In this document: piece after piece, positions 3,652-43,191 of the stretch
Layout: the number at the start of each line of letters is the position of its first letter
Position numbering within the stretch: the first letter of the stretch is position 1
Notes under the pieces: generated by a model
Databases searched by the model: none
Told to the model about the DNA's origin: nothing
Seen by the model: the letters and a program-made list of their open reading frames with translations, nothing else
Made by a program: the position numbers and the translations under genes
Source: Turnera subulata
Taxonomy: Eukaryota > Streptophyta > Magnoliopsida > Malpighiales > Passifloraceae
Assembly (NCBI GenBank): GCA_028386065.3
Contig: JAKUCV010006919.1
Span: 1 to 64,000, forward strand
Direction: 5' to 3'
Length of the DNA stretch: 64,000 nt

Positions 3652-4165
3652 TCTCATAGACTTATCTCAACTCTTTGCCTCTAACTTTTCAATCTTATTG
3701 AGATGACTTAGTTAAGTTCAACCCACAACAAGCAATTTGGATATTACAATTATCCCATCGCATCTTGCAAGGATAAACATTGGCACTTTTGCTTTGGCAA
3801 ACCTACCAAGTGTTGATCTAAGCATTGATGAGTGCTTATCAATGGAAGGCAACACATAAGGAACTTAATATTTCGCTTCTTGCTAGGATAAACATTGGCA
3901 CTCTGCTTTGGCAAAACCTATCAAGTGTTGTTCAAAGCATAGATGAGTACTTATCAACAATTGTTTCCATATTATGCATGTGATCATATATCGCATATAC
4001 AATCATTTATAATCAATACGAAGCTATGTGACATGATTATAAAAGGATAAACATGTTAACAAGCAATCAACATATTGTTCATATATCATTAAGATCATAA
4101 GAACATGTTATCTAGCATGCAAAACATCAAACTAGTTGGCATAATTTCAAAACATCGATGCTTAA
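3652..4165 (-). mobile_element. Copia-B internal region, left part
   Basis: Reverse complement of Copia-C DNA at about 42420-43030, including the repeated AGTGCCAATGTTTATCCT blocks. Interrupted at 4165 by the Ty3 insertion and resuming at 11985, with CTTAA duplicated on both sides. No open reading frame of note; it is the untranslated leader between primer site and gag. Confidence 0.75.
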
Positions 4166-6891
4166 TGAAACGCCCCGACCCGTATTTACCGTACACAGTA
4201 AACACAAGCCGGAACTCTGACAACCCAACCAAATTAACCCAAACATACAGTGTGAACAACAATAACTCGGCCCAACGGCCCAAAATAGTAAAACAACATA
4301 AATAACAAAACCGGCCCAATGGCCCTATAATAGCGAAAACATTGCACATCAGAAGACTTAACAAAACTCACATAAACACTGTATGCGACAATGCAAACTA
4401 TGGATCCAAGCCTGTCCAAGGGATAACGCTGCAGCCTGTCTGGAATGCACCAAACCTGTACATGAAACAACTCATCCTACGGGATGAAAGCCCGCAGGTG
4501 AGGGGTGAGTCCGAAGTGCTCACGACAATGGATAGACGATCAATATGGACACTAAGAATTACTCAAGGCAAAAACAAGTAAAAACCGACCCAAAGACTCA
4601 ATCAAAACCAATTATCCAATTTTATCTTTCCGGGCCCCGTCACGGATAAGCTAGGGTCGTACCAGGTTATCAACCTGTTCCTAGTGCCTGATCAAAAAGA
4701 ACCCAGGGATAGACATCCCAAATAACAAACCGGGATAGACATCCCAAGCATAGACATACTTATCAAGTAACCCAGATCATGGCCACCACAAACAGTCTCT
4801 AACCATCCGGTCGTACCTCTACTCACCACGTGATAATTATATCATCATTAAAAACCAAACTCAGGGATCGACATCCCTAACCAAAATACCGAGGATCGAC
4901 ATCCTCATCACAATCCATTATTACCTTATCCAAAGACACAGAAAAACGACACGGGGATAAACATCCCAAAAATACCAACAAGCACCGGGATAGAAATCCC
5001 GAGCCAAAACACAACAAAAGCATCATGCAATAAACCACAAACACAGTACCGAGTAATATAGGCATATATTGAAGGAAATCCATCCTCACCTTGGCCGATT
5101 ACTCAACTCCGGAAACTAATGACCGGTCCGACGCCGGCTCCTCGGGAAACTACCCGATATCCAACCTATACCACAAATCAATATACACTCACATAAATGC
5201 ACATATTCGGTACACTATGATGCCAATACTATGAAATATCCCATCCCGGTTCTTATTCGATATTATTATCCTTTACCGAAAATATTTTACCGAACGTATT
5301 TCCGAATATAATTTCAGTACCATACTTTAATTAAAATTCTTAAAAATATTTTCATAAAATAATTATAATTTCAAAAGTAATAAACCCATAATCTTTCCAG
5401 AAAAATAATAAGCTATTTATAATTTCTAGAAAATATTTATAGTATTTATCTTTTATAAATATATATACAATTTAATTTTCCAACACAAAACATAATTACT
5501 TTTAATTTACAAAATACATATTCATATACATACACCAAAATCATAATTTACCAGACTAAATAATATACATATAAATTTACAGAAATTAATTTCAAGTTAC
5601 ATATATATTTTTTCCAATTTAATAATAGTTTCACAAAACAAAAATTAATTATTTAACCAAGTAAATATATTTATATTTTAACAGAAATACCAGATTTAAA
5701 TTGGCATTAATTTACTCAAAATAACTATATATTTTTTTTCAAAATTGAATATCAGATTATGTTTAAATAAATATATATATAAATATAGTTTTTTAATTAA
5801 CGGACTGGGCCGTGAATAGTGTTGGCCCAGACCCAAGGCAGCAGGCCTGAAGCACAGGCCCGCGCCCAGGACCCGGCCCAACACTATACAGCCCATTCAC
5901 AACAAATCCAACCCACTGACGGCGACCCGTTTCCACAAACGGATCCAAGCGAGATTCCGGGTCTTACCTCCAGGTTGAGCGGCTGAGACGGCGGTGGAAG
6001 GCGCGAGGAAGGACGCGAGCACCACCTCGACATCTGGGCGGCACGAGTGGCGCGGGGGCGGCGGAAAGCTGGCTCTGTAACGCCGGCAGGAAGCGGGAGA
6101 AGCGAGGCAGCTGGATCCGTCGGATCTTCCGGCGGGTCAAAGGCCGTGGGAGGCGCGTCACGCGGCGGGAACGGGCGGAAGTGACGGCTTCGAGGTCGCC
6201 ATGGCCTGGCGACTCCGACGGAGGCGGTGGTGCTGCGAGATGAGGCCGGGAACTCCGTCGCATGTACAGTGGAGGCTCAGCCGGGGTGACAGTGAACAGT
6301 TCACTCCCTCTTTTTTTTTTCTTTTTCTTGTATTTTTCTGTATTTTCTTTCTTTTTCCTAATTCTTCTGATTTTTTTTCTCTGTTTCTATTTTTTTCATT
6401 TCTCTTTTTTTCTATTATTTTTTTTTCTTCTTCCTCTCTCACTGGCTTTTTTTTCTGTTTTCTCTTTTTTTCTATTTTATTTTTTTCTTTTTCTTTTTCT
6501 CTCTTTTTTCTCTCTTTCTCTTTTTTTTTTTCCTTCTGCTCTCCCACCGGCTCTGCTTCCTTAAATAAACTGGAAAACACTATTTGGCATGTGAATTACA
6601 AATAATGTAATTCGTCTGCATTACGGGCGAATCCGATCCGGACCAGAAAATAACCGATACTTCCTTAGTTATTTTCCGGTGCAATTTTCCGAGAAATTCC
6701 GAAACCCGAAAAATACCAACTTAGTTCCGAAAATCAACGGGAAAATCACGAGCGCGGGAAAACCCTCGGTTTCGAAAAGTGACTCCCGATTTACCTTGAA
6801 TTAATTACCCAAGATTAATTCAACAGTAAATCACGGTAAGACAATTTCTACAGTCCCGGTAAAAATAAAAAATTTTACCCGGGCTGTTACA
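4166..6891 (-). repeat. 3' LTR of the Ty3 element
   Basis: Begins TGAAACGCCCCGACCCG and ends GGGCTGTTACA; in element sense it starts TGTAACAGCCCGGG. In plus coordinates it holds a hairpin array (4706-5001), AT-rich DNA (5200-5800), a GC-rich block (5800-6290), then an almost pure CT stretch (6300-6540). ORFs across that CT stretch are low-complexity artefacts. Confidence 0.9.
4706..5001. repeat. Array of six short hairpins in the LTR
   Basis: Perfect inverted repeats around 4-nt loops: GGGAT-AGAC-ATCCC (4706-4719, 4732-4745), GGGAT-CGAC-ATCCC (4864-4877), GAGGAT-CGAC-ATCCTC (4891-4906), GGGAT-AAAC-ATCCC (4954-4967) and CGGGAT-AGAA-ATCCCG (4986-5001). The array is repeated in the other LTR at 9775-10080. 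Confidence 0.8.
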
Positions 6892-6925
6892 TTCTACCCA
6901 CCTTAAAAAGAATTTCGTCCCCAAA
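6892..6925 (-). other. Polypurine-tract region of the Ty3 element
   Basis: The complement reads GGGGACGAAATTCTTTTTAA then GGTGGGTAGAA directly before the LTR. 'GGACGAAATT...' before a G/A run is the usual 3' junction of plant Ty3/gypsy elements. It fixes the orientation as minus. Confidence 0.7.
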
Positions 6926-7035
6926 ATTCCGTCTTATCCGTGGGTCCTACCACGATAAGATTCTGGCACACTCTGCCAGGTATCCAACCTCAACATGAGA
7001 TACCGCTTATACCCTTAAGCGACATCTCATCCGCT

Positions 7036-7043
7036 TATAAATA
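7036..7043 (+). promoter_or_regulatory. TATA box of the 125-residue antisense ORF
   Basis: TATAAATA with 34 bp between it and the ATG at 7078. This is close, leaving a very short 5' leader, but the match is exact. It lies inside the element and is antisense to it, so it is independent of the LTR promoter. Confidence 0.55.
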
Positions 7044-7077
7044 CCAAACCTCATGACTAGAATACTCACACACAGTC

Positions 7078-7455
7078 ATGGATTCTCCACTGAGATCAAG
7101 AACAACTTTCGACTCCGAGAACAACAGCTACATCGGCAACAAAGCTTTACCAACAAGCTCCGATGAAGAGCCTCCGAAGAAACGGTTCAAAACCAACATC
7201 GTCGGTCTGGAGGAGCACATGGTCTTTTCCCCAAAACGACGGAAGAAACGTGCCAGCAAGAAGGCTGAAGACAAGAAAGCGAAGGCGGTAGCTGAGAGCA
7301 GCACTCCGCAACAGAAGCTGACACAACTAAACTTCTCCCTGAAGAAGATCAGCTTGGCGGTGGCGCAAATCGAAATGGCGTGCATGGAGCTCTTCCCGCA
7401 CATGGAAAATGCCAAAAAGAATGTAAAAGATCTAGAGAAGCAAGTACCTCCATAG
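7078..7455 (+). CDS. Antisense accessory ORF 1, basic nuclear-type protein, 125 aa
   Basis: Intact single-exon ORF on the strand opposite to its host retroelement. Residues about 32-36 (PKKRF) and 52-70 (PKRRKKRASKK, then more Lys) form two basic clusters like nuclear localisation signals. The region from about residue 75 to the end is helical in character, with spaced Leu/Ile/Met and a Cys (LNFSLKKISLAVAQIEMACM), and could be a coiled coil. A TATA box lies 34 bp upstream and AATAAA occurs at 7492-7497, about 40 bp after the stop, so it looks like a complete transcription unit. I do not recognise the family and assign no function. It precedes the 227-residue ORF by about 790 bp on the same strand. 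No counterpart was found in the Sirevirus-like element. Inference only: a nuclear accessory factor of the element. Confidence 0.6.
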   Translation: MDSPLRSRTTFDSENNSYIGNKALPTSSDEEPPKKRFKTNIVGLEEHMVFSPKRRKKRASKKAEDKKAKAVAESSTPQQKLTQLNFSLKKISLAVAQIEMACMELFPHMENAKKNVKDLEKQVPP

Positions 7456-8136
7456 AGAGTACTTCTTCTCCTGTTGTAAAACCTTTTCTGAAATAAATAA
7501 AATAATTTCCTTTTAAAATCAAAATCTCTTATGTTACCAGGTCTTATGTTAAATGGAAAAATAAAACATCTCAAAGTAAAACAAAAATCAATAACAAGAA
7601 TGTAAAATCAAATATAAAGAAATTAAAAACAAAACTCGTTTAACAAAATCAAAACGAAAAGAAATTAAAACAAAATATGTTTCATGAACGGTGCTCGTAT
7701 CGGACGAAAACACCCTCGAACCAAGAAACGTAACTCGCACAACGATGATCATGGGAATGTCCTGTGTCACTCGAAAGAATCGCTAACCACTTGGTCATAA
7801 ATTCCGCATGAGCCAAAACGTCTGTCTCGTCTCGTATCTCTCCACGATGTCCGAACAGTTGTAAACTCGTCGTACATGCACTCTACTCGAGGTGTGGTCC
7901 CATCCATCTAGCCACAACGGTTACAAATGCATGTCATAAAAGATGCAAGAAAAATGTAGAAAGACCATAAAAGAAAAGACAAGGTAGCCAGAGCGAAAAA
8001 AATCAAGAGATGGAAAAAGACTGAAAAACTCTGGCATGGGTCCGAAAAAACGCGTAAAGTAATAAATGCAAGCAACGGTACATTCAAAAAGCACGATCTT
8101 GAAAATCAAAAACAATTAACACGCTCCCCACAAGTG

Positions 8137-8144
8137 TATAAAAG
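8137..8144 (+). promoter_or_regulatory. TATA box of antisense ORF 2 (Ty3 copy)
   Basis: TATAAAAG. The start site expected about 30 bp downstream would lie after the in-frame ATG at 8156. This supports the downstream ATG at 8249 as the start, as does the protein alignment with the second copy. Confidence 0.6.
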
Positions 8145-8248
8145 AAGGAGCGGTGATGTGTAAATCATCAAAAGCATTAAAGCAACAAAACGCTAAAGCA
8201 AAAGAAAACACCACGTCCAAAAACAAGACCCCACACGTCCCAATCAAG

Positions 8249-8932
8249 ATGCCTGCTCCATCTTCAGTCTTCTTCGTCGAAGGTGCCAATCTTGGCAGGA
8301 GAAATCGTCTGGCGTACAGTATGGTCAATGAACGTCTAGAGGAGCTACCCAACGAGCTCGGCAGAATGCCTCGATTGGTCTTCGTCGACGAACTCTACTC
8401 GTCACGGTTCTTCATCACTCCCATGGAAGAGACCTTCTTCCTGGAGGATCACGGCACACTGAGGACATCCTACTACGGATCGGCAAACTCCGTGATGTTC
8501 TTCATCTCGGAAAGGCTTCAAGAGTTCAACCTAGAGTCCACTTGCCAATCTGTGGAGCAAGGAGCCTACTATCAACTCGCGATGACGGCTCAAAGCATGC
8601 CCAGAATGACTCGGCTACCTCCAACCTGGCCAAAAGTAAGACTGCTGGTGTGGAACTGTAGAGGCGTCGCAAGGCGTGGTCAAGAGTTCTCACGTACGCT
8701 GAGGGACCTGAAGAACCAATACAAACCAAATATGGTTCTTCTGACGGAGACGCAGTGGCAACCACGGGACGATCACAGTCTGATCCCACTCCGGTTCCCT
8801 CAAGCAAACCGGTTCGAGATTCCTGGCCAGCGTGACAGAGGCGGCATGTGGTTCTCGTGGAGCGACAGAGTCACGGTCAACATCAACAGTGACCCCAACA
8901 GTTTCCGTGTCAACGTCGTTCCGAATCGTTAA
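8249..8932 (+). CDS. Antisense accessory ORF 2: novel domain fused to part of a LINE-type endonuclease domain, 227 aa
   Basis: Intact, intronless, antisense to the Ty3 element. It is collinear without gaps with the ORF at 29916-30599 (150 of 227 residues identical by hand count). Residues 1-124 form a domain I do not recognise, with conserved blocks PRLVFVDE-x-YSSRFFITPMEE (41-61) and LRTSYYG (71-77). Residues about 129-227 resemble the start of the APE-type endonuclease of plant LINEs: VWNCRG at 134-139 (the Asn that contacts metal/phosphate), KPNMVLLTET at 159-168 (the catalytic Glu position) and a GGMWFSWS block at 198-205. The protein stops before the family's later catalytic Asp/Asn and Asp-His motifs, so nuclease activity is unlikely; a nucleic-acid or protein-binding role is possible. 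An in-frame ATG at 8156 would add 31 residues, but the TATA position and the homologue favour 8249. Confidence 0.75.
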   Translation: MPAPSSVFFVEGANLGRRNRLAYSMVNERLEELPNELGRMPRLVFVDELYSSRFFITPMEETFFLEDHGTLRTSYYGSANSVMFFISERLQEFNLESTCQSVEQGAYYQLAMTAQSMPRMTRLPPTWPKVRLLVWNCRGVARRGQEFSRTLRDLKNQYKPNMVLLTETQWQPRDDHSLIPLRFPQANRFEIPGQRDRGGMWFSWSDRVTVNINSDPNSFRVNVVPNR

Positions 8933-9228
8933 ATGTATTTTTATTTATAAAATATCAAAATATCAATGTAATATTTCCCTTTTTATAAAATATAAAATAT
9001 CAATGTAATATTTCTGTTTGTACTCAAAATATCAGTACTATTAATAATATTTGTATTTCCGCTTAATATGGCATCATTACCTCATATGTGTATGTACTGC
9101 GACAGCTGGCGTCCCTTGACTGGATCCATAATGCACTAATAAATGACATAAAATAATAAACAACTGGAGCGAACTATGCAAACAAAGACAACAAACACAC
9201 AAAGACTTCCCAACAAGACCTAACGCCC

Positions 9229-9239
9229 GCTCCGCTACA
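9229..9239 (-). other. Primer-binding site of the Ty3 element
   Basis: The complement reads TGTAGCGGAGC, 4 bp from the right LTR. It resembles the initiator Met-tRNA site TGGTATCAGAGC with changes, and matches the variant shared by the other elements in this window. Confidence 0.5.
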
Positions 9240-9243
9240 AAAA

Positions 9244-11979
9244 TGAAACGCCCCGACCCGTATTTACCGTACACAGTAAACACAAGCCGGAACTGTGACA
9301 ACCCAACCAAATTAACCCAAACATACAGTGTGAACAACAATAACTCGGCCCAACGGCCCAAAATAGTAAAACAACATAAATAACAAAACCGGCCCAATGG
9401 CCCAATAATAACGAAAACATTGCACAGCGGAAGACTTAACAAAACTCACATAAACACTGTATGCGACTATGGATCCAAGCCTGTCCAAGGGATAACGCTG
9501 CAGCCTGTCTGGAATGCACCAAACCTGTACATGAAACAACTCATCCTACGTGATGAAAGCCCGCAGGTGAGGGGTGAGTCCGAAGTGCTCACGACAATGG
9601 ATAGACGATCAATATGGACACTAAAAATTACTCAAGGCAAAAACAAGTAAAAACCGACCCAAAGACTCAATCAAAACCAATTATCCAATTTTATCTTTCT
9701 GGGCCCCGTCACGGATAAGCTAGGGTCGTACCAGGTTATCAACCTGTTCCTGGTGCCAGATCAAAAAGAACCCAGGGATAGACATCCCAAATAACAAACC
9801 GGGATAGACATCCCAAGCATAGACATGCTTATCAAGTAACCCAGATCATGGCCACCACAAACAGTCTCTAACCATCCGGTCGTACCTCTACTTACCACGT
9901 GACAATTATATCATCATTAAAAACCAAACTCAAGGATCGACATCCCTAACAGAATACCGAGGATCGACATCCTCATCACAATTCATTATTAATCCATTAT
10001 TACCTTATCCAAAGACACAGAAAAACGACACGGGGATAAACATCCCAAAAAAACCAACAAGCACCGGGATAGACATCCCGAGTCAAAACACAACAAAAGC
10101 ATCACGCAATAAACCACAAACACAATACCGAGTAATATAGGCACATATTGAAGGAAATCCATCCTCACCTTGGCCGATTACTCAACTCCGGAAACTAATG
10201 ACCGGTCCGACGCCGGCTCCTCGGGAAACTGCCCAATATCCAACCTATACCACAAATCAATATACACTCACATAAATGCACATATTCGGTACACTATGAT
10301 GCCAATACTATGAAATATCCCATCCCGGTTCTTATTCGATATTATTATCCTTTACCGAAAATATTTTACCGAACGTATTTCCGAATATAATTTCGGTACC
10401 ATACTTTAATTAAAATTCTTGAAAATATTTTCATAAAATAATTATAATTTCCAAAATAATAAACCCATAATTTTTCCAGAAAAATAATAAGCTATTTATA
10501 ATTTCTAGAAAATATTTATAGTATTTATCTTTTCTAAATATATATACAATTTAATTTTCCAACACAAAACATAATTACTTTTAATTTACAAAATACATAT
10601 TCATATACGTACACCAAAATCATAATTTTCCAGACTAAATAATATACATATAAATTTACAGAAATTAATTTCAAGTTACATATATATATTTTCCAATTTA
10701 ATAATAGTTTCACAAAACAAAAATTAATTATTTGACCAAGTAAATATATTTATATTTTAACAAAAATACCAGATTTAAATTGGCATTAATTTACGCAAAA
10801 TAACTATATTTTTTTCAAAATTGAATATCAGATTATGTTTAAATAAATATATATATAAATATAGTTTTTTTTAATTAACGGACTGGGCCGTGAATAGTGT
10901 CGGCCCAGACCCAAGGCAGCAGGCCCGAAGCACAGGCCCACGCCCAGGACCCGGCCCAACACTATACAGCCCATTCACAACAAATCCAACCCACTGACGG
11001 CGACCCGTTTCCACAAACGGATCCAAGCGAGATTCCGGGTCTTACCTCCGGGTTGAGCGGCTGAGACGGCGGTGGAAGGCGCGAGGAAGGACGCGAGCAC
11101 CACCTCGACATCTGGGCGGCACGAGCGGCGCGGGGGCGGTGGAAAGCTGGCTCTGTAACGCCGGCAGGAAGCGGGAGACGCGAGGCAGCTGGATCCGTCG
11201 GATTTTCCGGCAGGTCAAAGGCCGTGGGAGGCGCGTCACGCGGCGGGAACGGGCGGAAGCGACGGCTTCGAGGTCGACATGGCCTGGCGACTCCGACGGA
11301 GGTGGTGGTGAGGCGAGATGAGGCCGGGAACTCCGTCGCGTGTACAGTGGAGGCTCGACCGTGGTGACAATGAACAGTTCACTCCCTCTTTTTTTTTCTT
11401 TTTCTTGTATTTTTCTGTATTTTCTTTCTTTTTCCTAATTCTTCTGATTTTCTTTTTTTTTTCTCTGTTTCTATTTTTTTTCATTTCTCTTTTTTTTTCT
11501 ATTATTTTTTTTTCTTCTTCCTCTCTCACTGGCTTTTTTTTCTGTTTTCTCTTTTTTTCTATTTTATTTTTTTTCTTTTTCTTTTTCTCTCTTTTTTCTC
11601 TCTTTCTCTTTTTTTTTTCCTTCTGCTCTCCCACCGGCTCTGCTTCCTTAAATAAACTGGAAAACACTATTTGGCATGTGAATTACAAATAATGTAATTC
11701 GTCTGCATTACGGGCGAATCCGATCCGGACCAGAAAATAACCGATACCTCCTTAGTTATTTTCCGGTGCGATTTTCCGAGAAATTCCGAAACCCGAAAAA
11801 TACCAACTTAGTTCCGAAAAATCAACGGGAAAATCACGAGCGCGGGAAAACCCTCGGTTTCGAAAAACAACTCCCGATTTACCTTGAATTAATTACCCAA
11901 GATTAATTCAACAGTAAATCACGGTAAGACAATTTCTACAGTCCTGGTAAAAATAAAAAATTTTACCCGGGCTGTTACA
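9244..11979 (-). repeat. 5' LTR of the Ty3 element
   Basis: Second copy of the 4166-6891 LTR with the same termini and internal order: hairpin array 9775-10080, CT stretch about 11385-11625. Small substitutions and indels separate the two copies, for example an extra 'TAATCCATTAT' near 9985 and an absent 'AATGCAAAC' near 9466. Confidence 0.9.
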
Positions 11980-11984
11980 CTTAA

Positions 11985-12519
11985 CCTTAGAACATCAATG
12001 TTTGAGAATTCTGGAACTTCACAAGTTGACAGAATCCTCAGAACATCGATGTTTGAAGTTTCAGAATTCCAAAACATCGATGTTTGACACTTAAAATTCT
12101 ATGTTTGAAGTTTCTGGATTACAGAACATCGATGTTTAACACTTAAACATCGATGTTTGAAGTTTCTGGATTCCAAAAATAAGTGGCAGAATGATAGAAC
12201 ATCGATGTTTACATCTTAAACATCGATACCTTTCAATCACCTTTGTCGAACTCATTCGACTTCCTGTCGAAAGTACACTTTGATTGATATCATATACCAA
12301 TAAAGTACTTGCTCTCAAACACCTTTGAACCGACTTCAACATATCACATATATGAGAATCATAATGATCTAGTTTAAACATACATTCAACAGGTGCATAA
12401 TAAACTATGATCAAGTTATGTTGCTTATACAATTATGATCAAGCCACACCACATATAGCATATCATACATATAAAACAACTTATTCGATTTAGTGTTTCA
12501 CAAGAGGCTTCACTACCAC
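11985..12519 (-). mobile_element. Copia-B internal region, right part, with palindrome doublets
   Basis: Joins 3652-4165 once the Ty3 element and one CTTAA are removed. It contains ACATCGATGT-type sites at 11992, 12043, 12074, 12126/12147 and 12199/12220 (doublets 21 bp apart, some decayed). It matches Copia-C 41836-42420 in reverse complement. The primer site lies at 12507-12518. Confidence 0.75.
12507..12518 (-). other. Primer-binding site of Copia-B
   Basis: The complement reads TGGTAGTGAAGC, one base from the LTR end at 12520. Copia-C has TGGTAGCGAAGC at the same place. Confidence 0.55.
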
Positions 12520-25557: not shown

Positions 25558-27086
25558 TGTTAGTGCAGAATCCCTTCGCTAGAGGGGGGGTGAATAGCGA
25601 TAATCGAATTAAAACGAAATAAGCAGGAATTAAATTGCGGAATTTAAAGATTGAAGGACACAAAGATTTTTATACTGGTTCACACACAACTAACTTGTGG
25701 CTAATCCAGTCCTTCAAGTCTCACTTGAAGATTTCACTAGTGTTAAGCTTACGGGTGCTTAACAAACCGTTACAACCTAGGAATTCTAGTCACAAGAATC
25801 CTAAACCTGAAAGTTCAAGTCACATGAACCTCAGCACTCTTGCTTGAAGATACCTTACTTCAAGTCTTCTCACACAAGAAGATATACACCTCTTCTTATG
25901 AATCTAACCAAGGGAACTAACCTCCCTTAAGGTGTGTAAAAAAGAAAAAAAAAAACACAATCACTCAAACAAGGGTCTCTCTCAAAGAGCAGGTATAAGT
26001 ATACAAATGAAGCCTCTCAATCCTCAAAGGATATTGGCTCAATTTTGATTTTTATGAATGTATGCAATGAATGCTTGAAAGTGTAGAGTTGATTAGTTTT
26101 TAAAATAGAGACCTACATGCTTTATTTATAAGGTTGAAAACATGTATTACCATTGGAAAATCAATTCAAGACATCTTTAAACAAAGTAACATGGAAAGGT
26201 GAAAAGTGTATCTGCTCATGTTGGCTGAACATCGATGTTGCAAATCAGGACATCGATGTTCTAGCCTTTGAATATGCAATATTGGTCCAACGGTCATAAG
26301 GACATCGATGTTTCCAAATTGGACATCGATGCCCTGGCCAGTAAATATGAATTATTGAGCTAACGGTCACTAGAACATCGATGTTCTCCATATGGACATC
26401 GATGTTCCACAAAACGTTGTCCAAGACCCGAGACCAAATAACCAAATAACATCGATGTTGAGATTGTGAACATCGATGTTTCCAGGCCACTGCCAAAGAA
26501 TGTTGGAAACTTATTTGAAGAACATCGATGTTGTAAATTTGGACATCGATGTTCTGACCTTAGAAAAAAATTTTTGTTCAAAACCCTAGCCAAAATAACA
26601 TCGATGTTCCTTAGTTGAACATCGATGTTTTGGACATTCTCAAAACGTTTTTGAAGCCTGATATAATAGGACATTGATGTCATAACATAAGACATCGATG
26701 TTCAGACTCTTCAAGACAATTTTTAAGCATAACGGTCATGAGGACATCGATGTTCAGTAATGGGACATCGATGTTCAAGGCTCGGAAAACAAAAATGTGA
26801 ATGAAACAAAATCAAATTGATGCATGAGTAAAGGTGATTTTGTTTGAGCCAATATCTTAGAGACATTGAATGTTTAACCTTGTATACAATTGAGTTCCTA
26901 ACTCTTCTTGTGCTTCTTGTTTGATCATGTCACATCCATTCTTGAACTTTTGATGTTATAATGGCTTTGCTTTTGATTATTTCTTTTTGCTTGAGCCTTC
27001 AATTCAATTCATGCCAAGATTTTGTTTCTTGCATAGTTTGTCAATATCAAAACCTGTATGAAACACAAAGGCAAAGGCATCCAACA
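25558..27086 (-). repeat. 3' LTR of the Sirevirus-like element
   Basis: 1529 bp, starting TGTTAGTGCAGAATCCC and ending GGCATCCAACA. It carries the phased palindrome array at 26229-26774. It differs from the other LTR (32922-34434) at scattered positions. Confidence 0.85.
26229..26774. repeat. Phased ACATCGATGT palindrome array (LTR copy 1)
   Basis: Sixteen sites in eight doublets, with starts at 26229/26250, 26302/26323, 26375/26396, 26449/26470, 26522/26543, 26598/26619, 26671/26692 and 26744/26765. Spacing within every doublet is 21 bp. Doublet-to-doublet spacing is 73, 73, 74, 73, 76, 73 and 73 bp. Only 26323 (ends GC) and 26671 (ACATTGATGT) depart from the 10-bp palindrome. The DNA between sites is poorly conserved. 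Confidence 0.95.
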
Positions 27087-27262
27087 ATTTCCCCCTTTTT
27101 GATAATGACAAACAATGAAAGTATATGCCGAGATTTATAAATTTCAAAGTGGGATGAATTCCCCCTCACTTGATGCGTAGTTATTTTTTAATTCCCCCTT
27201 AGTGAGTGCATATCCTTAGTGAGTGCATATACTTTCTGTGATTTTTCCCCCTTTTGGCATTA
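27087..27262 (-). other. Multiple polypurine-tract-like sites
   Basis: Plus-strand CCCCCT or CCCCTT tracts lie at about 27089, 27164, 27195 and 27248, i.e. G-rich purine runs in element sense. The first directly abuts the LTR (complement AAAAAGGGGGAAAT). Repeated PPT-like tracts at this position are a feature I associate with Sireviruses. Confidence 0.65.
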
Positions 27263-27367: not shown

Positions 27368-28618
27368 CTAGTTCCCATCATCGTTGTCATCCTCATCATC
27401 TTCAGCCTCTTCCTTATCTTCTTCTTCATTTTCCGCGTCCATGTCCATAGGATCACCGGCCACAGTAGGATTACATGGCTCATCCTCATCATCTTCTTCA
27501 GCTCCGAAATCATAGCCCTGAAAAGTTGTATGATAGGGTGGAGGTTGATAGTGCACCCTATCAAAGTAGGACCGAAGAGCATGCCCTTGACGTTGAACTT
27601 CGAGGTCAATGCGATCAATGGACCGTCCCATGCTAGTAACACTCGCTTGGAGGTGTGTAAGAGATGCTGCAATCGATTCAAGAGTTACAGCAGGAGCATG
27701 AGGAGCGGGTTCGGGACGAGGTGGTGCTGCGGAACTCTCACCCGGTGTAAGGTTGGGTTCGTGCTCGGGTTTACCGGATCGGAAGGTGTCATCGCAAATT
27801 GCCCACGTTTTTGTATGAGAGACTTGGGGACCTTCCCTAGCATCAATGCCAACCTGCAGAAGAATGTCCAGCACCAAGGTAGGATAGGGCAAGGAATGAC
27901 GGGTGGATTGAGGCGGATAGTCGGTCATGTGCATAAGCACAAAACGTGCCCAATTAATTGGAGCATGATGGAGAATGGCATGGAGTATCTTCACATCTTG
28001 AATAGAGAGGATGGTATGATTTCCGGGTCGTGGCTTTATGACACGGGTGATGAGATAGAATAGAACACGATACTCCGGATGGATGGAATGAATTGTGGGT
28101 CGCTTGGAGTGGGTGGTACGGACGACCTCCGTGAAACCGATCTGTTGCAGAAGAGGGGCTTCCTGTGTCGTGATGAAATGAGGACCACCATAAGATGCAA
28201 TATCCTCACCCTGAAATGGTAAGCTGGAAACTACCCCGAATTGCTCAAGATTTAAGGAGATATCGATTCCATTCACCTGAGCAGTTAACACGTCACCGTC
28301 GTGATTGAGGGTGGAGTAGAATGCTCGGGTGAAGTCGGCACTAAATTGATGACTTCGGTTGGTGACGAATTCCCACAATCCAGATGCTCGAAGATGCTCT
28401 TCAAGACGAGTATAGTTCTTTTCCCTCGGATAAGAAACCGGAAGATACCGGGGAGGGAAAATTGAACGATTGTGGAAGAAGGATTGATAGAGATTGAGTT
28501 GTTGACGAGAGGGAAACCAAGCAGCAGATTGGTCATGTAGAGGGAATTTAGGAGAAGAGGAAGAAGTACCGCCTCTTTTGGTTGGTTGTCTCACGGGTGT
28601 TTTGCCGTGTCGGCCCAT
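27368..28618 (-). CDS. Env-like ORF of the Sirevirus-like element, 416 aa
   Basis: Intact ORF between the lost pol region and the PPTs, the position of the env-like gene in Sireviruses. Residues about 1-20 are basic (RQPTKRGG). The middle section (about 60-260) has the pattern of the 'putative plant transposon protein' domain: FTRAFYSTL, then VNGIDISLNLEQFG, then RVLFYLITRVIKP. Residues about 290-330 are Pro/Ala-rich, and 330-360 could be a short coiled coil (ASLTHLQASVTSMGRSIDRI). The C-terminus is a long Glu/Asp tail. I see no signal peptide or clear transmembrane segment, so a membrane envelope function is not supported; the name is positional. The opposite-strand ORF at 27362-28063 is a shadow. 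Confidence 0.7.
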   Translation of the reverse strand: MGRHGKTPVRQPTKRGGTSSSSPKFPLHDQSAAWFPSRQQLNLYQSFFHNRSIFPPRYLPVSYPREKNYTRLEEHLRASGLWEFVTNRSHQFSADFTRAFYSTLNHDGDVLTAQVNGIDISLNLEQFGVVSSLPFQGEDIASYGGPHFITTQEAPLLQQIGFTEVVRTTHSKRPTIHSIHPEYRVLFYLITRVIKPRPGNHTILSIQDVKILHAILHHAPINWARFVLMHMTDYPPQSTRHSLPYPTLVLDILLQVGIDAREGPQVSHTKTWAICDDTFRSGKPEHEPNLTPGESSAAPPRPEPAPHAPAVTLESIAASLTHLQASVTSMGRSIDRIDLEVQRQGHALRSYFDRVHYQPPPYHTTFQGYDFGAEEDDEDEPCNPTVAGDPMDMDAENEEEDKEEAEDDEDDNDDGN

Positions 28619-28867
28619 GGATTGCGTGAGAAATTAAGGAATAAAGAGTTGAAGAAATGAAGGATATGGAGTAGAGAATGACTTGGTGAGATTGTGGAGA
28701 AGAGTAAAGATGTAAGGCATTGGATTTTATGTAAGAGGCAGCAAAGAAAATAGTTGTTGGGGGGCTGATAACAGCTAGTAACGGCTATAAACGGCTAGTT
28801 GGTTTAAGAAGACAACGGCCAAATTGGCTCTCAACGGCTATATTTTTTTTTGAAAATCTGCAGTTGA

Positions 28868-29361
28868 ACATCGATGTCCATGAAGGTAACATCGATGTTC
28901 TGTTCAGTTGCGTTGATTGTGTGAATGACTAACGGCTATATTTTTTAAAGTCTACAGCTGAACATCGATGTTATGTGCTCTCGAGTCCGAGTTAAGAGAT
29001 AGGTTAGTCAGTTGAGCATCGATGTCCATAATGGGAACATCGATGTTATATGCTCTCGGGTCCGAGTTATGAAATAATTAAAGAAATCAGAACATCGATG
29101 TTCGTAATGAGAACATCGATGTTGCATGCTCTCTGGTTGAAATTCGAAAGAGCAAAAGAATGAACATCGATGTCTTGGGTTTGAACATCGATGTTCCGAT
29201 ACAAAACATCAATGTTGTATGAGTGTTATATATTTAATACATATTGGTGTTAGAAAACTTACCTGAACATCGATGTTGTGATACGCAACATCGATGTTTT
29301 TACCATTCTGCCTCTTATTCAATGCATTCAACATCGATGTTTGTCAGAACGACATCGATGT
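28868..29361. repeat. Palindrome doublets downstream of antisense ORF 2 in element sense (internal cluster 1)
   Basis: ACATCGATGT or one-mismatch sites at 28868/28889, 28962, 29016/29037, 29092/29113, 29164/29185/29206, 29267/29288 and 29331/29352. Spacing within groups is 21 bp throughout. Several groups are 72-76 bp apart, though spacing is less regular than in the LTR. The run 29164-29206 is a triplet. No protein-coding ORF is supported here; AACATCGATGTT-derived 'NIDV/HRC' peptides are artefacts. Confidence 0.9.
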
Positions 29362-29828: not shown

Positions 29829-29915
29829 GGCAGAGATTAAGATCATTAGACAGAAAATTATAAGCCAACTTCAGAAAGAGAGATTAGAAAAATCAAAAGC
29901 AAAAAGGAAAAAAAA

Positions 29916-30599
29916 ATGCCTTCCCCTTCCACCGTCTTTTTCGTTGAAGGTGCAGCCGTAGGTAGAAGAAATCGGTTGTCCTTCAGTATCGCAAATGAGC
30001 AACAAGGGCCATTTCCAGAGGAACTAACAAGAATTCCTCGTCTTGTCTTTGTAGACGAAATCTATTCGTCCCGATTCTTTATCACCCCTATGGAAGAAGT
30101 CATATTCCTGGATCATCAACAAACCCTGCGAACTTCCTACTATGGTACGGCTAATTCAACGACGTTTTTTATTTCTGACCGGTTTCAGGATCTTCGGTTG
30201 GAACCAACCTGCCAGACTCTGAATGAGGGCAGTCACTACCAGATTACAATGACCGCTCAGAGCATTCCGCGAGTGGCTGGAGTAGCGCCGACTTGGCCAA
30301 AGGTTCGCCTTTTGGTGTGGAACTGCAGGGGTATCACGGCACGTTCCCAAGATTTTGTTCGAACTCTACGAGACTTGAAGAACCAATATAAACCAAATAT
30401 GGTTCTGCTCACCGAGACTCAATGGCAGCAAACCGGAGATCATGGAAATATTCCTCTTCGCTTTCCACCAACACATCGGTTCGAGCTTCCTGGTCAGAAC
30501 AACTCGGGTGGAATGTGGTTTGCTTGGAGTCATTGTATTAGGGTTAATATAGTTCATACTCCTAATGGCTTTTCTGTAACAGCTGAACCAAATCGTTAG
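29916..30599 (+). CDS. Antisense accessory ORF 2, second copy, 227 aa
   Basis: Intact single-exon ORF opposite to the host element. It has the same length as 8249-8932 and aligns without gaps; many codon differences are synonymous, as expected under purifying selection. Invariant blocks: SSRFFITPMEE (51-61), LRTSYYG (71-77), PTWPKVRLLVWNCRG (125-139) and LRDLKNQYKPNMVLLTETQW (151-170). The last 100 residues look like the front part of a LINE APE-type endonuclease, including WNCRG, a Glu in LTETQ and an SGGMWFAWS block. The C-terminal catalytic half is absent. TATA box at 29822, polyadenylation signal AATAAA at 30758-30763. The ORF sits between two clusters of palindrome doublets. No family known to me covers residues 1-124. 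Confidence 0.8.
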   Translation: MPSPSTVFFVEGAAVGRRNRLSFSIANEQQGPFPEELTRIPRLVFVDEIYSSRFFITPMEEVIFLDHQQTLRTSYYGTANSTTFFISDRFQDLRLEPTCQTLNEGSHYQITMTAQSIPRVAGVAPTWPKVRLLVWNCRGITARSQDFVRTLRDLKNQYKPNMVLLTETQWQQTGDHGNIPLRFPPTHRFELPGQNNSGGMWFAWSHCIRVNIVHTPNGFSVTAEPNR

Positions 30600-31011: not shown

Positions 31012-31268
31012 ACATCGATGTGTGCTTAGCCAACATTGATGTTTAGTGCTCTCTGGACATAAATTTAATTTTATCTAATGAATGAACATCGATGTTGTCT
31101 TGTGTACACATCGATGTTTAAGAAATGAAGAGAACACTTACTCAACATCGATGTTTTGATACGAAACATCGATGTTATTTCATATCGGTTCTTGGCGGGC
31201 TTTGCTGCTTGCTGGAACATCGATGTTGTGCTTCAAAACATCGAAGTTTGTGGTAACGACATCGATGT
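31012..31268. repeat. Palindrome doublets (internal cluster 2)
   Basis: Sites at 31012/31033, 31086/31108, 31145/31166 and 31217/31238/31259. Within-group spacing is 21 bp (22 in one case). Group starts are 74, 59 and 72 bp apart. The last group is a triplet whose middle site is mutated (ACATCGAAGT). Confidence 0.9.
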
Positions 31269-32865: not shown

Positions 32866-32907
32866 GGAAATTTACCTCTCAAACGATTAAGTCTTTCAGA
32901 GAGTTTG

Positions 32908-32919
32908 GCTCCGCTACCA
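32908..32919 (-). other. Primer-binding site of the Sirevirus-like element
   Basis: The complement reads TGGTAGCGGAGC, two bases inside the LTR end at 32922. Confidence 0.6.
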
Positions 32920-32921
32920 AT

Positions 32922-34434
32922 TGTTAGAACAATATCCCTTCGCTAGAGGGGGGGTGAATAGCGATAATCGAATTAAAACGAAATAAGCAGGAATTAAATT
33001 GCGGAATTTAAAGAATGAAGGGCACAAAGATTTTTATACTGGTTCACACACAACTAACTTGTGGCTAATCCAGTCCTTCAAGTCTCACTTGAATATTTCA
33101 CTAGTGTTAAGCTTACGGGTGCTTAACAAACCGTTACAACCTATGAATTCTAGTCACAAGAATCCTAAACCTAAAGCTCAAGTCACATGAACTTTGGCTC
33201 TCTTGCTTGAAGATACCTCACTTCAAGACTTCTCACACAAGAAGATATACTCCTCTTCCTATGAATCTCAACAAGGGAACTAACCTCCCTTAAGGTGTAT
33301 AACAACACAATCACTCAAACAAGAACTCTCAAAAGAGTGGATATGAGTATACAAATGAAGCTCTAAAAGGCAACTCTCAATCCTCAAAGGATATTGGCTC
33401 AATTTTGATTTTGATGAATGCATGCAATTAACACTTGAATGTAGAGAGTTCATTTTGAAAACAGAGACCTACATGCTCTATTTATTAGGTTAAAAACATG
33501 TAATACCGTTGGAGAATCATTTCAAAACAACTTTAAACAAAGTATCATGGAAAGGTGAAAAGTGTATCTGCTCATATCGGCTGAACATCGATGTTCCAAA
33601 TCAGGATATCGATGTTCTATCCTTTGAATATCCAATATTGGTCCAACGGTCATAAGGACATCGATGTTTCCAAATTGGACATCGATGTCCTGGCCTGTAA
33701 ATATGAATTATTGAGCTAACGGTCACTAGAACATCGATGTTCTCCATATGGACATCGATGTTCCACAAAACATTGTCCAAGACCCGAGACCAAATAACAT
33801 CGATGTTGGAATTATGAACATCGATGTTTCCAGGCCACTGCCAAAGAATGTTGGAAACTTATTTGAAGGACATCGATGTTGTAAATTTGGACATCGATGT
33901 TCTGACCTTAGAAAAATTTCTTTGTTCAAAACCCGAGCCAAAATAACATCGATGTTCCTTAGTTGAACATCGATGTTTTGGACATTCTCAAAACGTTTTT
34001 GAAGCCTGATACAATAGGACATCGATGTCATAACATAAGACATCGATGTTCAGACTCTTCAAGACAATTTTTAAGCATAACGGTCATGAGGACATCGATG
34101 TTCAGTAATAGAACATCGATGTTCAAGGCTCGGAAAACAAAAATGTGAATGAAACAAAATCAAATTGATGCATGAGTAAGGGTGATTTTATTTGAGCCAA
34201 TATCTTAGAGACATTGAATGTTTAACCTTGTATACAATTGAGTTCCTAACTCTTCTTGTGCTTCTTGTTTGATCTTGTCACATCCATTCTTGAACTTTTG
34301 ATGTTATAATGGCTTTGCTTTTGATTATTTCTTTTTGCTTGAGCCTTCAATTCAATTCATGCCAAGATTTTGCTTCCTGCATAGTTTGTCAATATCAAAA
34401 CCTGTATGAAACACAAAGGCAAAGGCATCCAACA
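32922..34434 (-). repeat. 5' LTR of the Sirevirus-like element
   Basis: 1513 bp copy of 25558-27086. It starts TGTTAGAACAATATCCC here; the first 15 bases differ from the other LTR. Confidence 0.85.
33585..34122. repeat. Phased ACATCGATGT palindrome array (LTR copy 2)
   Basis: Eight doublets at 33585/33606, 33658/33679, 33731/33752, 33797/33818, 33870/33891, 33946/33967, 34019/34040 and 34092/34113, all with 21-bp internal spacing. Periods are 73, 73, 66, 73, 76, 73 and 73 bp; the 66 reflects a 7-8-bp deletion relative to the other LTR. The site at 33606 is mutated (ATATCGATGT), while 33679 and 34019 are intact where the other LTR is mutated. Confidence 0.95.
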
Positions 34435-35085
34435 TCAACCTCCCCCTCTCACCATCACCACTCAACTCCTTCATCTCCCATATCAACTGCCAACAGAACC
34501 ACCGTTGATCGCCGCCTCAAGCACTCATCATATCGTGTTGCCTGCTAATCGACTTGTCCGTGATAGTGACGAGGAGGAGCAACTAGTCCAACGCCGTCGC
34601 ACTGGGAGGAACGCCGCCACCGCCTTAATCCTCCTCCTTGTATGCCACTACCCGCAGCAGCTCGTCGCTGCCACTCCCTTATTCCTTCTTCCCTCCATCT
34701 CTTTCCTTTACAAACCAACGCAGTGCAGCGCTGCCTACTTGAACTGTTGCGGCCTCAATCTGTTCTTCACTTTCAACCCGTAGTTTCCCGCACGTGGTCA
34801 CTGCCACATCGAACCTCCTTTCTACCTCTCTTCGTTTGATTTCTGTACCCCCCTCCTTTTTAATTGTTTTGTGGCCAAATGAGTTGCTTGATAATGGGGG
34901 TTTGGACTCAGCTGGCAGTGATGGCGTCTGTGGTGTTCCATGGTTCTGTTGTGTTTTTTTAATTGCAAGACTTTGTGTTTTTGAATTCCACTTCATTATG
35001 TCACTTGACGAACCTTATCAGCAAAATTAAATGGAAACCGTCATGAAGACTTGATTACTACTTAAATTAACGGGATAGGACTCAA
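34435..35085. other. Unassigned DNA
   Basis: CT-rich then mixed sequence with short ORFs (for example 34406-34783) that I cannot relate to any family. It might be a further LTR leader. Nothing firm seen. Confidence 0.3.
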
Positions 35086-40355: not shown

Positions 40356-41834
40356 TGTTAGTGTAATGCCCAAACGCCAATCATTGGATGATTATATTTT
40401 AAGTCATGTATTTTTTATTAAGGTTTTATTCCAATAAATATATTTATCTATGATAAATACTTGCGCATATTTATAATCTAAGAATATTTTATATTCTTGA
40501 AATGTCCCTAATCGATTATTATTATGGATGGGTTATAATAATAAATTAAGACTAGCGTATGTTGAGAATTATATGAGATATGAATTCTACATACGGGTAC
40601 AAGTTTGAGAACTTGTGGACTGGACTGTCCCGACATAAGAACACTGCATGGACTCATGTTGTCATTAGTGATTCTTATACGTACTATCCTTAGACCTGAG
40701 ATCATCAAGGTTCCCAACACGTGAGTCATATACTTTGATATTACTATTGGTTATTCGTAACTGAGTAGACCTAAGAGTAATCATTGGGTATATGATATAA
40801 TGTGTAGTGGGTTTTGTATGATCAAGATGGAATTCGTCCAACCCGTATAACGGGAATATTATCAGTTGGGTCCCTTGATAGAGTTGAACTGTAAATGCAT
40901 GGCCATGCTCGGATTAAGTGATATGGAGATATCATTTGCATCTGCTTTACACAGTTAACTCAGGGATCAAGAAATCTTAGATTAAACATATACAAGAATG
41001 ACATATTCCATGTCTCGTGTTTGATCTTGATAATGGGACGAAAGGATAATGACATCTTTCTGAGGCATAATGAATCAGTACTGATCTTGTCGTTTGGGTA
41101 GCAATGATGTGTTGCTAGACACCGCTTATTGTTTATAATTGTAAATAAGAGTTTACAATTATTGTCCAACATCACAAGTGCCTACAGGGTCACACATTTA
41201 AAACTGTTGATTCGAGCTAGTGGTTAGACCATGGTTGGACCGAGTCGTTTTGGGTTGATTTAGTTCACTAATTACCAGAATTATTGAACCAGAATTAATG
41301 CCATATGATGTGTAATCCTATATATATGATAATATATATAATTAATGCTTAATGGAGCATTATGGCATAGTAGAGACATGATTAGAGATAAGGCATAATC
41401 ATGATGGTTAATGCATGATGATGTTGACCATTGTCTCATTAAACTATGCATTACAAGTGTGTATAAAAGGGAGAAGGATTGATCAAATTTTTCAGACTTA
41501 ACACACTCACTTCATACTTGAAAGAAACACATCAAGCACTCTAGTCTCTAGCTCTCGGAAATTCTGCAACTAGCACTGCGGTTTGGGAGTGCTCGGGTTA
41601 GTAATCGTGTGACGGTTGCTAGCGGTCATCGACGGTTCCTGTGGATACCGTACAGGAGTCGGATTCTTGTCCGGTTCTTGATGATTCGGCTCAATAGTTA
41701 AGTGAAAGGACTCGACCAAACTAGGTACGAAATTCTTGTTATTCGGTTTATCCCGTTTCACATGGATCCTCCATTAGTTTCGAGTTTTCTGCTACGCATC
41801 TTGTCTCTTTTGTTTGCATACCCGGTTACTTACA
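40356..41834 (+). repeat. Copia-C 5' LTR, complete
   Basis: 1479 bp, TGTTAGTGTAATGCCC to GGTTACTTACA, directly followed by a primer site. It contains an AT-rich leader and TATA-like sites, and ends with the section matching 12520-12719 (reverse). Confidence 0.85.
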
Positions 41835-41835
41835 G

Positions 41836-41847
41836 TGGTAGCGAAGC
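41836..41847 (+). other. Primer-binding site of Copia-C
   Basis: TGGTAGCGAAGC one base after the LTR end. It defines plus orientation and the LTR boundary. Confidence 0.6.
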
Positions 41848-43191
41848 CTCTTGTGAAACACTAAATCGAATTAGTTGCTTATATGAATGATATGCTATAT
41901 GTGATGTGGCTTGATCATGATTGTATAGGCAACATAACTTGATCATAGTTTATTATGCATCTGTTGAATGTATGTTTAAACTAAATCATTATGATTCTCA
42001 AATATATGTGATATGTTGAAGTCGGTTCCATCAAAGGTGTTTGACATTAAGTACTAGAATGGTATATGATAGAAATCAAAGTGTACTTTCGGCAGAAAGT
42101 CGAATGAGTTCGACAAGGGTGATTGAGAGGTATTTGATACCAAAACATCGATGTTTTATGTTTAAACATCGATGTTCTGTTTGGCCGAATGTCAGCCGAG
42201 GGGCCAAAACATCGATGTTTAAGTGTAAACATCGATGTTCTTAAGTACTGCCAACTTCAAACATCGATTTTTAAGGTCAAACATCGATGTTCTGAGGTTC
42301 TGCAAAATTCAAACATCGATGTTTAGGATCAAACATCGATGTTATGAGATTCTGCCAACTTTTTAAAGTTTGAAAATTCTCAAACATCTATGTTCAAGTT
42401 CAAAACATCAATGTTTAAATTTTGGTTTCTTCTCACATATGTCTTGTATAGTGCGAAAATTTGGTTTGAGTTGAAGTACAAAATTTTTCTGAAGGTTCTA
42501 CAAATTAGTTTGATGTTTTGCATACTAGATAACATGTTCTTGTGATCTTAATGATATATGAACAATATGTTGATTGCTTGTTAACATATTTATCCTTTTA
42601 TAATCATGTCACTTAGCTTGGTATTGATTATAAATGATGCATGCTTATTGTATATGCGATATATAATTTGTTAATTACATGCATGTGATGTATAAAAACA
42701 ATTGTTGATAAGTACTCACCTATGCTTAGATCAACACTTGGTAGGTTTGCCAAAGCAAAGTGCCAATGTTTATCCTAGCAAGATGCAAAATATTAAGTTC
42801 TTATGTGTTGCCTTCCATTGATGAGCACTCATCTATGCTTAGATCAACACTTGGTAGGTTTGCCAAAGGAAAGTGCCAATGTTTATCCTAGCAAGATGCG
42901 ATGGGATAATTGTAATATCCAAATTGCATGTTGTGGGTTGAACTTAACTAAGTCATCTCAATAGGATTGGGACATAGAGGCAAAGAGTTGAGATAAGTCT
43001 ATGAGATAGACAAGAACAAGAGTTGTTCACTTAACTATCCAAGAGTTACATGAGATGTAATTGACAAAGAGTTGTCTACCTAAATAACTATGATATAAGC
43101 GATTAGCCAAAGCTAACTTATAGTGAAATATGGATCTTGGCCCACTTATTACCATTTGATTTATATAGTGGGAGTATTATTTAATAAAATT
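41848..43191 (+). mobile_element. Copia-C leader with palindrome doublets
   Basis: Palindrome sites at 42145/42166, 42209/42229, 42261/42281, 42313/42333 and 42384/42405 (20-21 bp apart within doublets; the last pair is mutated). A duplicated block (TAGATCAACACTTGGTAGGT) lies at about 42728 and 42840. No ORF before gag. Confidence 0.8.

Follow-up and report, generated by a model that had tools for sequence, protein, structure and literature searches.

Two of the systems closest to the arrays described here are the VANDALs, which are not retrotransposons, and Tnt1, whose BII boxes are repeated in U3. In Arabidopsis, the VANDAL transposons carry the short VANC motifs in tandem arrays in their non-coding parts (PMC5735166, PMC10398659), and the VANC6 motif is also described from an unrelated transposable element, AT9TSD1 (PMC5735166). 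Words beginning with "spac" or "palindrom" are absent from the text of PMC5735166, which therefore does not treat helical phasing under either term. The BII boxes are protein-binding boxes in the promoter part of a tobacco Copia LTR and bind defence-induced factors (PMC3316501). In Spm/En and other CACTA transposons, many copies of a short motif are recognised by an element-encoded regulatory protein, TnpA, and a soybean CACTA relative is described with 24 right-border repeats able to form palindromes (PMC2613891). Finally, tandem arrays are common in Retand LTR retrotransposons, where they precede the 3' LTR and are accompanied by antisense ORFs (PMC11963269, PMC7264820); the origin and function of these arrays are stated to be unknown, and a DNA-binding accessory protein has been proposed (PMC11963269).

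We analysed a window of Turnera subulata DNA (the whole stretch of 64,000 nucleotides) in which a 10-bp palindrome, ACATCGATGT, is arrayed in a retrotransposon, element A, and in a second family, element B. As in the VANDALs, a short motif is tandemly repeated in non-coding regions of the element, but the motifs given for VANC (YAGTATTAY, AGTTGTCC and AGTTGTAC) differ from this word. Furthermore, VANC is described as carrying DUF1985/DUF287, which was found neither in the sense accessory ORF of element A, ORF2 (PF20167 is the only match in a domain search up to E 10), nor in its antisense accessory ORF. Repeats in U3 upstream of a TATA box, as in Tnt1, are present in element A only, the array of element B being located in the leader. 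In contrast to the BII boxes as described, one palindrome with putative binding is phased here over hundreds of base pairs, and it is also found inside the element and in another family. The likeness to the TnpA repeats lies in the many copies of a short motif, the binder here being putative, whereas those are described as subterminal repeats of DNA transposons acting in excision and have a different word and architecture. An antisense accessory ORF and tandem arrays in the same region are shared with Retand. However, Retand are Gypsy elements while the gag of both A and B is PF14223, of copia type. Nearly all of them are described with a TRP28 (PF04195) ORF, whereas in element A the sense ORF2 has PF20167 and PF04195 is absent from the antisense ORF (Exo_endo_phos is the only match of the latter up to E 0.01), and their repeats are described as family-specific, whereas one word is common to several families here. 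For the VANC and Retand families, a defining feature that was tested is absent from our elements. In our best reading, the arrays would work like VANC target arrays, TnpA target repeats and Tnt1 BII boxes.

In titles and abstract openings, we found no description of this palindrome or of helical phasing in such arrays. Among the matches listed for the word ACATCGATGT there is no title on transposons, titles and abstract openings for ATCGATGT combined with retrotransposon and LTR contain nothing on such arrays, and literature searches on helical phasing in transposable elements gave unrelated work only. No known factor for ACATCGATGT could be named.

The array that was reported first is located in the U3 of the 3' LTR of element A (26229..26774, minus strand). 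This LTR (25558..27086, minus strand, TG...CA ends assigned by eye) pairs with a 5' LTR (32922..34434, minus strand, ends by eye), and in a self-BLAST 25555-27096 matches 32919-34447 at 92%, confirming the position of the array within an LTR. It consists of 16 palindromic sites forming eight doublets, all eight with an internal spacing of 21 bp, and the doublets start 73, 73, 74, 73, 76, 73 and 73 bp apart, so both the spacing and the periods given in the initial annotation are reproduced from the sequence. Its count of sixteen ACATCGATGT sites is slightly overstated: there are sixteen sites in register, but only 14 are exact and two have one mismatch (26323, ACATCGATGC; 26671, ACATTGATGT). 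Tandem Repeats Finder reports a 73-bp repeat that covers the array in part (26227-26407). The array in the U3 of the 5' LTR (33585..34122, minus strand) also has 16 sites, 15 of them exact, and one of its periods is 66 instead of 74, an 8-bp indel. Over the complete window, the palindrome has 73 matches with at most one mismatch, against 1.65 expected and a maximum of 6 in 100 shuffles. Sixty sites are exact, and no other palindromic 10-mer occurs more than six times, N runs aside. A base-frequency table made from 263 sites with at most one mismatch, the A 3' LTR array left out, gives RACATCGATGTY as the extended site, with R at -1 and Y at +1 in 259 of the 263 sites each.

Element A is a Copia-type LTR retrotransposon on the minus strand, having an LTR pair, a putative primer-binding site, a putative polypurine tract and a copia-type gag. 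In the 5' to 3' direction it contains the 5' LTR with its array, a sequence resembling a primer-binding site and adjoining this LTR (32907..32921, minus strand), gag (PF14223, 31462..32871, minus strand, E 3.3e-6), internal array 2 (nine sites, 31012..31268), the antisense accessory ORF (29916..30599, plus strand; stop-to-stop 29850-30599, Met at 29916 by eye), internal array 1 (14 sites, 28868..29361), ORF2 (27368..28618, minus strand, Met by eye), a purine tract (27087..27106, minus strand) and the 3' LTR with the array reported first. Both the primer-binding site and the polypurine tract are assigned from their sequence and position. ORF2 matches PF20167 (Transposase_32, putative plant transposon protein) with E 1.3e-11. 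Internal array 2 lies between gag and the antisense ORF. Each LTR has a TATA-like sequence downstream of its array; that of the 3' LTR, a putative TATA box TATAAATA (26123..26130, minus strand), follows the nearest site, read along the minus strand, at a distance of about 98 bp. A pol domain was not found in the ORFs scanned, so element A is probably non-autonomous, and by eye no perfect target-site duplication was seen.

The motif AACGG[CT][CT]A, which we take to resemble a mitosis-specific MYB site, occurs 16 times in the window. Eleven of these are in or beside the arrays of element A, at 26289, 26362, 26731, 28780-28931, 33645, 33718 and 34079.

Element B has one LTR (40356..41834, plus strand, ends placed by eye) with TATAAAAG at 41462; no second LTR was seen within the 64-kb window. 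Its array (42145..42414, plus strand) has ten sites in doublets of 20-21 bp and lies in the leader, between a sequence resembling a primer-binding site (41835) and gag (PF14223, 43188..43856, plus strand, E 1.9e-12). Unlike the U3 arrays of element A, it is thereby downstream of the TATA box. By eye, elements A and B have in common the word GGTAGCGRAGCC, resembling a primer-binding site (32907-32921 and 41835-41848). A second B-type copy in the opposite orientation has an array at 11992..12229 (minus strand) with eight sites in register, one of them with three mismatches and one with two. Next to it, at 4164-11986, is an element with LTR-like repeats of about 2.7 kb (4164-6898 and 9242-11986, 96% identical) in which the antisense-type ORF is found again. 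This element seems to interrupt a B-type array by insertion, with flanking sites at 4152 and 11992.

To describe the conservation, the eight units of the 5' LTR array were aligned with gaps. The sites are identical in 553 of 560 pair-columns (about 99%), and the inner and outer spacers in 134 of 308 and 481 of 1055 (44-46%), i.e. the spacers have diverged and the palindromes stayed intact, as was first proposed. In a gap-free alignment of the units, the site columns rank first among the 73 circular shifts. Of 59 pairs of genome copies that were compared, 53 have sites less diverged than their spacers (p<0.001 in 41), these pairs not being independent. The 59 pairs are from 84 possible within groups; the other 25 had a masked score below 80 bits, mostly in groups 0 and 3, and were left out. 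An equal divergence of sites and spacers, named in the initial annotation as the outcome that would speak against it, is therefore not seen across the copies examined. The array of the 3' LTR and its relative at L034, for instance, differ at 3 of 160 site positions, 131 of 372 spacer positions and 129 of 554 flank positions. In six of the 59 pairs the sites have diverged as much as the spacers or more, including nearly identical and badly aligned pairs.

The two LTRs of element A in the window differ at 3 of 160 site positions and 16 of 378 spacer positions (p=0.21), while the comparison of sites with the remaining LTR, 3 of 160 versus 62 of 962, gives p=0.017. A non-significant deficit in the sites is what is expected of copies that are dead after insertion. 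As the copy pairs are constrained and this LTR pair is not clearly so, the constraint acted during the evolution of the families and is not clear in the short time since this insertion. Between B1 and B2, 11 of 88 site positions, 52 of 158 spacer positions and 56 of 498 positions elsewhere in the element differ; the divergence of the sites resembles that of the rest of the element, though it is below that of the spacers. CpGs in the element A LTR are kept at 15 of 16 positions in sites versus 13 of 17 elsewhere (p=0.34). Of 36 changes in the 263 sites, 15 are C-to-T or G-to-A at the central CpG, which may hint at germline methylation.

The spacers inside one array remain related (A z 7.2, internal array 1 z 4.1, B2 z 9.1), and we therefore conclude that the arrays grew by duplication. 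No relatedness was detectable among the spacers of internal array 2 (z 0.5, three pairs). Internal arrays 1 and 2 are weakly related to each other (z 3.5), and between the A LTR, A internal and B arrays there is no clear relatedness of the spacers (z -0.9 to 2.3).

The assembly that contains the window (518.7 Mb, 7,125 contigs) was searched for the doublet. The exact 21-bp doublet occurs 26,222 times, compared with 19 for a reversed-pattern control. The six spacings from 23 to 28 bp occur together 115 times and the seven spacings from 34 to 40 bp 1,214 times; many of the places listed for the latter are 39-40 bp with a third site in between, and some come from 18-bp doublets. Arrays, defined as at least three sites with at most one mismatch each, were collected from the window and from 13 stretches around the first listed doublet places (L026-L029 not included). 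By the similarity of masked spacers and flanks, the 27 arrays form four groups: the U3 of A-type LTRs, the A internal arrays, the B leader and one further group, with a distant gag match near the array in three of its four loci. Between the four groups the spacers are unrelated, and the only shared features are the site and its phase.

The 252 gaps between adjacent sites in these 27 arrays cluster near two, three, four and five helical turns. There are 137 gaps of 18-22 bp, none of 23-29, 11 of 30-33, one of 34-41, 19 of 42-45, none of 46-49, 80 of 50-55, two of 56-62 and two of 63-80 bp. In total, 238 of the 252 are at most 2 bp from a multiple of 10.5 bp, for which about 46% of the integers from 18 to 76 qualify. 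Since the 21-bp doublet served to retrieve the arrays, a test of the phase has to rest on the 115 gaps above 22 bp. Counting each value once per group (37 values), these gaps give a best period of 10.50 bp (R=0.62) in a scan between 7 and 20 bp, and none of 100,000 random sets was as phased. Adding the 18-22 bp class shifts the best period to 10.7-10.8 bp. Seven further arrays were picked at places listed for the 34-40 bp spacings and are thus biased against the phase. They fell into three of the four groups without forming a new one, and 108 of their 115 gaps are at most 2 bp off the 10.5-bp multiples. The window alone shows a weaker phasing (R 0.545, p about 0.004). Gaps of 18, 35, 37, 40, 58 and 61 bp are off-phase, and in some arrays, e.g. 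G000:C23:17020-17089, 18-bp doublets are found between the 21-bp ones as an off-phase exception.

The helical phasing that was proposed for a single array thus extends to many others. That all sites face one side is too strong a statement, with 238 gaps in phase but 14 of the 252 more than 2 bp off, and with the 18-bp doublets. A special role of 73 bp is not supported, as other arrays use 31, 43, 52, 53 and 54 bp; the common unit across arrays is about 10.5 bp and not 73 bp. The reading of 73 bp as half a nucleosome wrap was dropped, this not being the general period.

Rows of a palindrome that lie mostly on the same face of the helix suggest a docking strip for a putative DNA-binding protein. 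We consider it probable that the arrays are cis-regulatory, phased on one DNA face for a putative dimeric DNA-binding protein and acting on the transcription of the element. Each ACATCGATGT, or its extended form, would be the putative site of a sequence-specific dimeric protein. Retrotransposon families would have assembled this site into arrays within non-coding control regions, i.e. in the U3 upstream of the TATA box, upstream of accessory genes and in the leader before gag, and selection would have kept the sites near whole helical turns (two, three, four or five). Dimers on one DNA face could contact each other or a shared partner, and the array may act as an enhancer or as an anti-silencing platform for the element's own transcription. 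The conservation of the sites, the helical quantisation in the fetched arrays, the four contexts with unrelated spacers and the genome-wide abundance of the doublet are observed; from these we infer protein binding, cooperativity and an effect on transcription or methylation. The same word is used by unrelated families, so a host factor could equally be the binder, and a host factor is slightly favoured over an element-encoded one.

Alternatively, element A itself could encode the binder, as ORF2 or as the antisense ORF product. Such an accessory protein would bind the arrays as an anti-silencing factor or activator that keeps elements unmethylated and expressed, with other families exploiting the site. 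This would be a special case of the explanation above, comparable to VANC or TnpA, and we regard it as possible but unlikely. Both accessory ORFs look constrained from their codon changes. Compared with relatives, ORF2 has dN/dS values of 0.15, 0.32 and 0.18, and the antisense ORF has 0.18, 0.10 and 0.11, one further pair being saturated at silent sites (codons with gaps, N or stops were left out). Copies of the antisense ORF are found at 29850-30599 (plus strand), at 8120-8932 (plus strand, inside another element), at L035:1882-1202 and at L041:8332-7658; in two other A-type elements it has the same place and orientation, with 89% and 70% amino-acid identity. The idea that the antisense ORF at 29850-30599 is a random insertion splitting one array was dropped, its place being conserved in these two elements. 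The internal array sits between the two accessory ORFs in three of the four A-type elements for which an LTR pair was seen, namely that of the window, L034/L035 and L041/L042. Internal array 1 looks like a shared two-way promoter region, because it lies between the divergent ORF2 (minus strand) and antisense ORF (plus strand) and beside AACGG-type repeats, and in the relative at L042 also has a clear TATA box by eye. An array outside the family that encodes the binder would have a parallel in VANC, whose target motifs are tandem in non-coding regions and, as described, also present in the unrelated AT9TSD1 (PMC5735166).

Against the accessory proteins of element A, several loci have arrays and no match to them. 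In the fourth A-type element, L038/L039, gag is matched and both accessory ORFs are without a match. The 10 kb fetched at L030, where an A-type array is present, contain no match to gag or to either accessory ORF, and neither accessory ORF is present in the stretches fetched for the group-0 and B-leader loci. Stops are present in the copies of some relatives. In the domain searches, ORF2 matches PF20167 only and the antisense ORF Exo_endo_phos only, and no recognised DNA-binding domain was found in either. The Exo_endo_phos match is a weak likeness of the C-terminal part to the first half of the domain, with E 4e-4 and below the curated cut-off. None of 170 candidates was a homologue of the antisense ORF at E<=0.001. 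A protein search with ORF2, scoring only the 8,000 candidates with most shared words, gave only two named matches, both from a plant, Turnera subulata (Passifloraceae, Malpighiales), P0001 (57% over 56% of the query) and P0002 (84% over 39%). The structure models of ORF2 and the antisense ORF are unusable, with a mean pLDDT of 40.3 and 37.4, respectively. The wider idea, in which a retrotransposon-encoded trans-regulator and phased palindrome arrays form a self-recognition system for anti-silencing or activation, shared or parasitised by several Copia-type families with tens of thousands of target sites, is similarly tentative and seems slightly less likely still.

By eye, another small antisense ORF, containing a basic stretch, was noticed at L041 (about 9405-9023, minus strand), next to the internal array of this other A-type element.

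A function in RNA is improbable. Each doublet would then be a hairpin of 10-12 bp in the element RNA that serves packaging, dimerisation or processing. Such a fold is available to most of 26 doublets, with a mean of -14.3 kcal/mol (two degenerate ones -1.4 and -4.8), the arrays are in parts expected to be transcribed (the B leader and the U3 at the 3' end of A), and a G-U pair is kept at the altered position in three of the eight doublets that have a changed site. However, any pair of palindromes folds likewise, a two-sided compensatory change is found in none of the eight, and a hairpin would need neither a fixed word nor gaps of three, four and five turns between doublets.

Even less probable is a neutral tandem repeat, where the palindrome is merely part of a 73-bp or 21-bp unit expanded by slippage. 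The 73-bp repeat found by Tandem Repeats Finder at 26227-26407 and the relatedness of spacers within one array, strongest in A and B2, are what slippage would give, but the sites are 98.8% identical and the spacers 44-46%, and 53 of the 59 pairs show unequal decay. Moreover, the four groups have in common only the site and the phase. Slippage of a 21-bp unit gives 21, 42 and 63 bp, so the 31- and 52-bp gap classes, odd multiples of half that unit, do not come from it. With sites and spacers decaying unequally, a neutral repeat does fit worse than an ordered array, in agreement with the initial annotation. A coding repeat, with one heptad of seven codons per 21-bp step, may apply to bacterial arrays (25 bacterial loci have the same doublet, 24 of them with an open frame across the short stretch printed), but is hardly credible here, where the common gaps of 20, 31, 43, 52 and 53 bp are not multiples of three, the arrays are located in U3, leader and intergenic stretches, and the stop-to-stop frames of 104 and 113 codons that overlap the array reported first end inside it.

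Since slippage, RNA and coding all fit poorly, a constraint on rotational position remains, as the binding of dimers on one helix face would impose. The cis-regulatory reading makes a sharp prediction for this type of array, namely a dimeric binder of one word with an activity that depends on the 10.5-bp phase. If it is true, thousands of dispersed copies would be under one regulatory code, and a single protein, from the host or from an element, could switch much of the mobile DNA of the genome or be titrated by it.

Among viral contigs, the doublet had no matches at a spacing of 21 bp or of 30-31 bp. At least three sites are present in 17 of the 25 bacterial stretches (L001-L025), mostly at multiples of 21 bp and with variable spacers, and by eye some of the bacterial genomes have a leader sequence in common.
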